In this document: one piece after another, positions 49,862 to 52,675 of the stretch
Layout of the letters: each line of letters begins with the position of its first letter
Position numbering within the stretch: position 1 is the stretch's first letter
NCBI GenBank assembly: GCA_016839805.1
Contig: JAEOTO010000003.1
Location: 1-64,000 of the forward strand
Origin: Candidatus Hermodarchaeota archaeon
GTDB taxonomy: Archaea; Asgardarchaeota; Hermodarchaeia; Hermodarchaeales; Hermodarchaeaceae
Reading direction: 5' to 3'
DNA: 64,000 bases
Notes under the pieces: model-generated
What the model saw: only the letters and a program-made list of their open reading frames with translations
What the model was told of the DNA's origin: nothing
The model's database searches: none
Made by a program: the position numbers and the translations under genes

Positions 49862-49976
49862 GCCGCGGTAGCCAAGTGGTTTACGGCGCAGGCCTGGAAT
49901 TCATTCAATCGTGGAGGAAAACCAAACAGCCTGTGACCTTCGGGTCTCATGGGTTCGAATCCCATCCGCGGCGCCA
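49862..49976 (+). tRNA. tRNA-Ser(GGA) with 28-nt intron, CCA encoded
   Basis: The acceptor stem is GCCGCGG with CCGCGGC, then discriminator G and encoded CCA. The D arm is GCCAAGTGGTTTACGGC, the anticodon stem is CAGGC/GCCTG, and the long variable arm GACCTTCGGGTC marks a class II tRNA. The T arm is ATGGGTTCGAATCCCAT. The anticodon loop is CTGGAA joined to A, which reads UCC. The intron lies after position 37 at about 49900-49927; its ends may be off by one. TGG of the loop can pair with CCA near the intron 3' end, consistent with a bulge-helix-bulge substrate. It is on plus, opposite to cbf5 and uS13. Confidence 0.95.
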
Positions 49977-49999: not shown

Positions 50000-52675
50000 T
50001 TAAGACTTACGTTTCCAGGCTGGAGGATAGGTTCCAGCAGGGATTACAACTCGCATTGTTTTTGCCACTATTCCCGAAGAAGCTTTGAGTATTTGTTGCG
50101 TTGATTGTTGCGCTATTGCCAAAGCAACGAGCTCAGTTTTAATGGTTAGAATAGCAACGGTATCTCCCGGTTTTATGTCATCATGGAGTTGCAGCACACC
50201 TGCCACAGCTAGGTTGGCACCATGGCATAATGCATCGACTGCTGTGTCTCGAATTACAATTTGAGGCAGGTGAGCCACGCCATCCTCCAAAGGGTGTAGA
50301 ATCAGACGGAGAGGTTGCTGGTCTTTCTCCTCTTGCCAGAAATGATAGGCATCGACTACATCATAGAGAGTTGCTAAGGTGGAATCTTCTTTGAAGGGTC
50401 CGGTTCGAGTGCGGCGAAGTTCAGCCATATGAGCTCCACCCCCAAGAGCTTCTCCAATATCATAGCAATTGCTTACAAACGCAGCACCATTCAATGCAAA
50501 ATTATGATGCTGGTTTACGGTTATATCATAGACATAATCGAAATCTGCAGTTGTTTTTTCAACCGCTTTGATTTCGTCCAGAAAGTATTTTGCATTTACT
50601 TGATTTTTCAATGCAATTAGGTCGAAATCGTTCTTAGGCACTACTTTTTGTAATGATTTGACTATTTTTGATAAAATCAGTCTGGTTGGTCTTTTACCTG
50701 TCAATAGTTGATTAAATGCTCCTCCTCTGTAAATTGAATTTTTTGATAACCCATATTGCTGAATTAAATTTTTGATATGGGTTACGCATGATATGGGCAT
50801 TAAGTCTTGTGAGCCATATGATTTGTATCGTGAAAAACGTGTTTCAAATTGCTTAATCTTTTTTTGTTTCTTAGGGTGTTTACATTTCATTAATTGGGAA
50901 AACCGAATTTTGTCAAAAGGCGATTTAATTATCACATGGTATTTTGGAGTTTTTCCACTCTCATCAAAGGTTGAACCTAGTCTTTCATATATCTTTGAAC
51001 GTATTCCAAGGCGTTTTAGTAGTAGAGCTAGTTGAACTGCAATATGATAAAAAGCTGTGTCGTATGCGATCTCTGTGTAAGGTGAATTCGTTTTAATAGT
51101 AACTGTTCCATCGCCATCAAAGTATCCTGACATGAAGTTTGAAATCATATCTTTTGAGAGAGAAGAAAGGTTTTCTAAATGCATAGTTTTCTTTGGACTC
51201 ATAATTCCAAGTTTTTTCGCAATGCCTGCAAGAACGGGATTATTTACCGTCACAAGAAATGTTCCAGAGATTTCTGATTGTCGAATGCTAGTTGCTGGAA
51301 AGAACCGATTTACTGTTTTAATGAAATATTGAATGAGTTTACTTTCTTGGTTGGTAAAAATTACCCTCGTAGGTCGTATGCATTTCTTTTCTTGGACCAC
51401 ACTACCATCAGACGCCACCAAACCTAGTAAGAATAGAAGTTCGGAATTAATTTTCTTCTCTGAAATTGAATAGTAAGCACCTCTCTCGCCTTTGAACGCT
51501 TCAACCATCTCGCAAACTGAAGTCCAATCTAGTCTAGTTTCCTCACAAACTTGGCGAAGATACTTAATTCGAATACCCATTCCTGTTTGGAGAAAGACTC
51601 GCCTGTCTATTCCAAGAATCCTACAGGCTTTTGTTACACTGCCAAACGCTTCTGAAAGGAATTTCTTGCATTGTTTTTTCAGTTCGTTTCCAAGGCAAAG
51701 GAAGTCCTGATCTAAAAGCTCTAGAAGATATGGGATTTTCTCATTTTTTTGAGTTAATTCTCGGGGGCTGAAAAGAAAGTTTCCTGGAACGATGTCTTCT
51801 GCATCTTTCAATAAAGGACCTTTGATATCATCAACTAGTATTTCATGGTCAGGAGTAACTTGGAGTCTAAGACCCGAATCAAGTTTGAGCCTGACCATTT
51901 CAGAAGGCGCTGGTAATTTTTGGACTGCGGTGATGGAGGAAGATTCAAGTTTGTGGTCGTGAAGATTTAAAGAAAGTGTCTCCAAAAATCCCAAATCTAA
52001 TTTATTGGAATTAGAAGAATCCAACCTTGAATCAACGACCTTCGAGATTTGGTGGAGACCTCCATTTTGTAAAAAGAGAAAAGAAGAGGGAGAAACACAT
52101 AACTTTCTGATGTAGGTTCCAGCTTGACAGCCGACGCGAAATAAGACGTTTTTCTCTTCAATTTCTAAGATATGTATGTAGTAGATTTGACGCGTACGAA
52201 CACGCCGTTTTACTGAGGAGCGAACAGGAGGTCGTTGATAAATCGTTCCTACAAACTCTGCTGCAACCTCACGAATTTTATCTGGAGATTCCTCTTGATG
52301 GAGCCGCATAACACAGACGTATTCTTTACCCGATGTAAGGAGTGCATTAGCAATTTTGGTGGAATTTCCAAGCATAACGGGAAGCACACCAGTGACCTGA
52401 GGGTCCAATGTTCCTGCGTGACCTGCTCGATCTAGACGTAGAATACGTTTTACCCAGGACACTACTTCATGGCTAGTCGGCCCAGGAGGCTTTTCTGGGC
52501 TTGTAAAAGGTCAATAACCTCTTAAAGGCAAGCTATCCAGATTGATGATCCCATCCCGAAATAACTCAGGAATGGTTCGCTCCTGTGGAACACGACCATA
52601 AGCCGGATTCGTAGTATCCTCGGCACGCGTTACCAGTTTCCGTTTCTTATCTGCAGGCAGCCGCGGCTTTGTCAC
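50000..52675 (-). CDS. cbf5: H/ACA pseudouridine synthase Cbf5, split by an mRNA intron and carrying an intein
   Basis: Coding parts are 52675..52535 and 52492..50000. The start is GTG 52675 with GGAGGT 7 nt upstream. Exon 1 encodes 47 residues ending ...IINLD; exon 2 continues [18 protein letters not shown]. The catalytic aspartate is D77 in [11 protein letters not shown]. After residues AGTYIRKL the 544-residue intein (179-722) interrupts the protein, and the C-extein resumes with [20 protein letters not shown]. The PUA domain ends the protein. The precursor has 877 residues and spliced Cbf5 would have 333, the normal size. It isomerises uridines guided by H/ACA RNAs with Nop10, Gar1 and L7Ae. 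Unspliced RNA would stop at a TGA after 54 codons. Confidence 0.96.
50468..52099 (-). mobile_element. LAGLIDADG intein in Cbf5 (544 residues)
   Basis: The intein starts with Cys ([14 protein letters not shown]) and ends with [13 protein letters not shown] before the extein Cys, the classical C-terminal splice block with the terminal Asn. Block B is at about residue 83 ([10 protein letters not shown]-x-x-H). The homing endonuclease has two dodecapeptides, [12 protein letters not shown] near residue 225 and [12 protein letters not shown] near 328, each with its catalytic acid. A helix-turn-helix-like segment ([18 protein letters not shown]) and a second one near the C-terminus ([17 protein letters not shown]) may aid DNA binding. 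All splicing residues look intact, so it should be active. Confidence 0.95.
52493..52534 (-). other. Archaeal mRNA intron in cbf5 (42 nt) with bulge-helix-bulge
   Basis: Exon 1 ends ...CTGGAT and exon 2 starts AAGCCT. CTGG (52540-52537) pairs with CCAG (52498-52495) as the 4-bp central helix. Bulges are ATA (52536-52534) and AAA (52494-52492). GCTTG (52533-52529) pairs with CAAGC (52503-52499) as inner helix. Cleavage after the second nucleotide of each bulge, as tRNA endonuclease does, removes 42 nt and joins GAT to AAG, giving INLDKPPG. The in-frame TGA is inside the excised part. The outer helix is weak. Confidence 0.93.

Follow-up and report, generated by a model that had tools for sequence, protein, structure and literature searches.

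How can Cbf5 be produced from a gene whose reading frame is broken by an internal stop codon? In the window analysed here, a 64-kb stretch of DNA from the draft MAG of a Candidatus Hermodarchaeota archaeon (genome G000), cbf5 lies on the minus strand, running from a GTG at 52675 to a stop codon ending at 50000, and is interrupted by a 42-nt insert (52534–52493) whose TGA at 52513–52511 breaks the frame, with the coordinates and stop codon being exactly those of the original prediction of an intron at this locus. Exon 1 (52535–52675, minus strand; 47 codons) is an open reading frame with GGAGGT 5′ of its putative and uncertain GTG start, while exon 2 (50000–52492, minus strand; 830 codons plus stop, counting an intein) contains TruB_N, TruB_C_2, PUA and intein domains. 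A GTG start can also be proposed in genome G002 of the same genus, with a CTG at the same place in G003 and G001. The insert, which begins with AGCTTG and ends with CAAGCCCAGAA, sits in phase 0 between GAT (Asp) and AAG (Lys), and its removal joins …GIINLD (to 52535) in frame to exon 2 from 52492. As predicted, excision thus restores the Cbf5 motif without a frame change, and the boundary is the same across four genomes of the genus. A conserved protein that is restored when an insert in its gene is removed is what is expected of a pre-mRNA intron. Group I and group II introns span hundreds of nucleotides with a catalytic core, against 42 nt here, and an Rfam search of 48–54 kb of the window returned a tRNA as the sole gathering-level match and no group I or group II intron. 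The best supported reading of the 42 nt is that this Asgard cbf5 mRNA carries a putative intron of the EndA type.

The minimum-energy fold of the insert (z = −3.8; equally stable shuffles, 0/200) and the four-genome comparison agree on the putative splice motif. On the minus strand, CTGG at the end of exon 1 (52537–52540) pairs with CCAG in the intron (52495–52498) to form a 4-bp central helix in 4/4 genomes, and GCTTG (52529–52533) pairs with CAAGC (52499–52503) to form the inner helix, whose second pair is C-G, T-A or T-G across the genus. Each boundary carries a 3-nt bulge: ATA on the 5′ side (52534–52536), with the predicted cut after its second base (52535/52534), a geometry as in crenarchaeal cbf5 (PMC2738675), and AAA on the 3′ side (52492–52494), with the predicted cut at 52493/52492. 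Central helix, bulges and inner helix are those of bulge-helix-bulge (BHB) pre-mRNA introns. The outer helix, by comparison, consists in 4/4 genomes of a single T-A pair closing the 3′ bulge, short of the canonical hBHBh′ form, so that the motif is relaxed (BHL-like); the pairings and bulges of the original prediction thus stand, but not its description of the motif as an exact BHB. Since most crenarchaeal cbf5 introns likewise have an unconventional BHB (PMC2738675), the 1-bp outer helix weakens the label ‘canonical BHB’ and not the assignment to this class of intron. The window contains about 1.1 matches per kb per strand to the strict 4+5-bp pattern, and the motif by itself is therefore weak proof, although with both boundaries dictated by the protein sequence only 97 of 200,000 shuffled inserts formed a BHB precisely there.

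The strong support for an intron comes from its recurrence across genomes. An insert with a different loop in each case occurs at the identical codon boundary in four of the five genomes of the genus, all draft MAGs (42 nt in G000 and G002, 41 nt in G003, 40 nt in G001), and every boundary pair restores the Cbf5 reading; the assembly of the fifth member, G004, yields no match to TruB_N. The boundary helices are kept (95.5% of cells paired in the four genomes, versus at most 57% in slid controls) and the loop is variable. Among these genomes, synonymous sites in cbf5 are close to saturation, with both exons still conserved. Covariation among the four sequences is weak: both partners differ in two pairs, a result matched by 85 of 500 shuffles and not significant. 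Outside the genus, the junction was contiguous in all cbf5 loci searched for an insert at this D–K position (164/164), and three sister-genus genomes have an uninterrupted INLDKPPGP or close variant. Five loci of family f24 gave no match in the motif search and were left out of the analysis. In a Cbf5 tree, the four intron-bearing members form one clade (SH-aLRT 99). By this distribution, the predicted intron at the D|K site (hereafter site 2) is a separate, genus-level gain with a single origin inside Hermodarchaeota.

The closest known counterpart is the crenarchaeal cbf5 pre-mRNA intron (Watanabe 2002; Yokobori 2009, PMC2738675), which shares with the site-2 intron the gene, a similar size, a BHB-type boundary that is often relaxed too, the cut between the second and third bulge residues (predicted in our case) and hosts with a hetero-oligomeric EndA, putative in G000 with its two EndA-family genes. 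With gene, motif type and size range (16–44 nt in crenarchaea; PMC2738675) in common, the site-2 intron might be an ancestral or crenarchaeal cbf5 intron that was inherited or has moved. We regard this as very unlikely, since crenarchaeal introns interrupt the codon for the catalytic Asp of GTLDP after its first base (PMC2738675), a codon that is uninterrupted in the window, whereas the intron in this Asgard host is in phase 0 at the D|K junction of INLDKP, between codons and about 30 codons upstream, and site 2 amounts to one change on the Cbf5 tree, inside Hermodarchaeota. The comparison of insertion points that the original prediction had proposed therefore yields two different sites; of its two implications, processing of mRNA by EndA agrees with the best reading, but an ancestral intron is not supported for site 2, which is confined to one genus and is not the crenarchaeal site.

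A split or truncated gene, with an upstream piece that is dispensable and translation restarting downstream, could make use of a GTG-started frame from 52462. Such a restart would, however, drop a 10-residue stretch that is invariant in our archaeal alignment save for its second P and last V. Moreover, exon 1 is under purifying selection, with dN (0.05–0.18 in both exons) well below dS (0.8–1.5 or saturated) within the genus, and joins exon 2 without a gap, making a split gene very unlikely too. Less probable still is recoding, in which the RNA is left whole and the ribosome reads through, shifts or bypasses the insert. Readthrough of in-frame stops is conceivable in G000 and G002, where the insert length is divisible by three, but the 41 nt of G003 and 40 nt of G001 would demand another trick at the same place; bypassing requires matching take-off and landing codons, and those found are GAT and GAA in 4/4 genomes; and what is conserved is a splice-type structure rather than a slippery or landing site. 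A search of G000 for a second intact cbf5, on whose absence the original prediction depended, gave one TruB_N match only, pointing to a single cbf5 in this draft MAG (~87% complete). Although a draft of such completeness invites the suspicion of a pseudogene or assembly error, this is barely credible for four assemblies with differing intron sequences at one place, a genus-wide pattern that contradicts it, and a single-copy gene whose downstream frame (830 codons) is intact.

An EndA-type intron presupposes the splicing machinery, and G000 encodes two EndA-family proteins on separate contigs. The first, a 188-aa frame, has its nearest match in 3p1z_B, one chain of an archaeal tRNA-splicing endonuclease built of two (E 1.7e-45), and on alignment to 1a79 retains intact the Tyr, His and Lys that we take to be the catalytic residues; the second, a 200-aa frame, lacks the catalytic His in the same alignment. 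Most relatives likewise have two EndA-family genes. Two genes, one without the His, fit a putative (αβ)2 arrangement. The crenarchaeal (αβ)2 EndA accepts relaxed motifs in non-tRNA RNAs (PMC2738675); as a caution, the (αβ)2 enzyme of Methanopyrus acts on BHL substrates to a limited extent only (PMC12397907). G000 also has one RtcB (491-aa frame). As introns bounded by BHB-type motifs are present in several of its tRNA genes, the tRNA-splicing machinery is presumably in use in the Hermodarchaeota cell; archaeal BHB/BHL tRNA introns share the motif class with the cbf5 intron, and differ from it in that the substrate proposed here is an mRNA. A tRNA-Ser(GGA) with a 28-nt intron, identified with Rfam, lies in the window itself (49862–49973, plus strand), convergent with cbf5 and about 26 bases past its end; ARAGORN with default settings reported no tRNA in the window and missed this one.

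We propose that the cbf5 transcript would adopt the relaxed bulge-helix-bulge fold, that a two-subunit EndA would cleave both 3-nt bulges behind their second base to release exactly 42 nt, and that RtcB would join the exons into an mRNA encoding an uninterrupted Cbf5 N-terminal region. That the insert is an archaeal EndA-type pre-mRNA intron handled in this way, gained once in the ancestor of the genus and away from the crenarchaeal site, is in our judgement very probable. We infer cleavage and ligation, and that functional Cbf5 would come from the spliced mRNA only. Exon 2 also encodes a 544-aa intein (50468–52099, minus strand; YIRKL|C…N|CYDIG) with intein-splicing and LAGLIDADG domains, which protein splicing would take out afterwards, so that finished Cbf5 would require RNA splicing plus protein splicing. 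The intein is absent from G001 and G003, and G002 appears to bear it, with the same intein start in an 836-aa frame. Inteins starting at the same place in Cbf5 were also seen in two other Asgard genomes, from families f16 and f17. On one side, cbf5 is neighboured by S13-S4-S11, an arrangement that fits the Asgard cluster described as S13-S4-S11 with L34e-L14e-Cbf5 (PMC10833476).

The crenarchaeal position (site 1) is itself occupied elsewhere in Asgard archaea. At least 12 further Asgard genomes, from families f5 (4), f11 (4), f13 (3) and f6 (1), carry site-1 cbf5 introns 29–41 nt long, some of them on long contigs (1.1 Mb in G011, 443 kb in G029), and we found none in the Hermodarchaeota genomes compared. 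All have a 4-bp central helix and 3-nt bulges, and thus share gene, phylum and these BHB features with the site-2 intron, from which they differ in position and, often, in having an outer helix of 4–5 bp. The count leaves out cbf5 copies on two small contigs (G053:C131 and G197:C57) and the site-1 copies of G184 and G187, which are probably Asgard and come from bins that are 9–12% contaminated. Both bins with the small contigs match cbf5 on another contig too, and their intron-bearing copies may reflect binning contamination. Among Thermoproteota, the site-1 pattern was matched in 168 of 398 genomes, in some cases outside cbf5, and 21 of the 30 loci examined proved to be cbf5 with a BHB at site 1, several of them clustering with Bathyarchaeota in the Cbf5 tree. 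The site-1 intron is widespread in Thermoproteota, past the two orders described in 2009. On the tree, site 1 corresponds to nine changes, at least four of them forced by well-supported branches, and since the tree is poorly resolved at depth, this distribution could stem from inheritance combined with losses, from several independent gains or from transfer. It is possible, if doubtful, that the site-1 intron is older than the split between Asgard archaea and Thermoproteota and has been lost repeatedly, the Hermodarchaeota intron being a later second gain in cbf5; in that case, the archaeal lineage from which eukaryotes arose would once have spliced an mRNA with the tRNA endonuclease.

In the literature covered, BHB introns within archaeal protein genes have been described in one gene only, crenarchaeal cbf5 (PMC2738675), and this was still so in 2020 (PMC7714728); the Asgard intron report that we found deals with tRNA (PMC11291895). 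The original prediction knew of the crenarchaeal introns and of no Asgard report, and our literature search, with subscription journals and preprints outside its scope, likewise found none on cbf5 or mRNA introns in Hermodarchaeota or other Asgard archaea, so that priority for an Asgard mRNA intron is not certain. To this the present analysis adds Asgard hosts, a second insertion site in cbf5 and the presence of the crenarchaeal site in other Asgard families. As read from these genomes, the data suggest that Asgard archaea, relatives of eukaryotes, may splice some of their mRNAs with the tRNA-splicing machinery. Gene calls in Asgard genomes may overlook exons, and how old archaeal mRNA introns are, and how they were gained and lost, can now be tested through phylogeny and metatranscriptomics.
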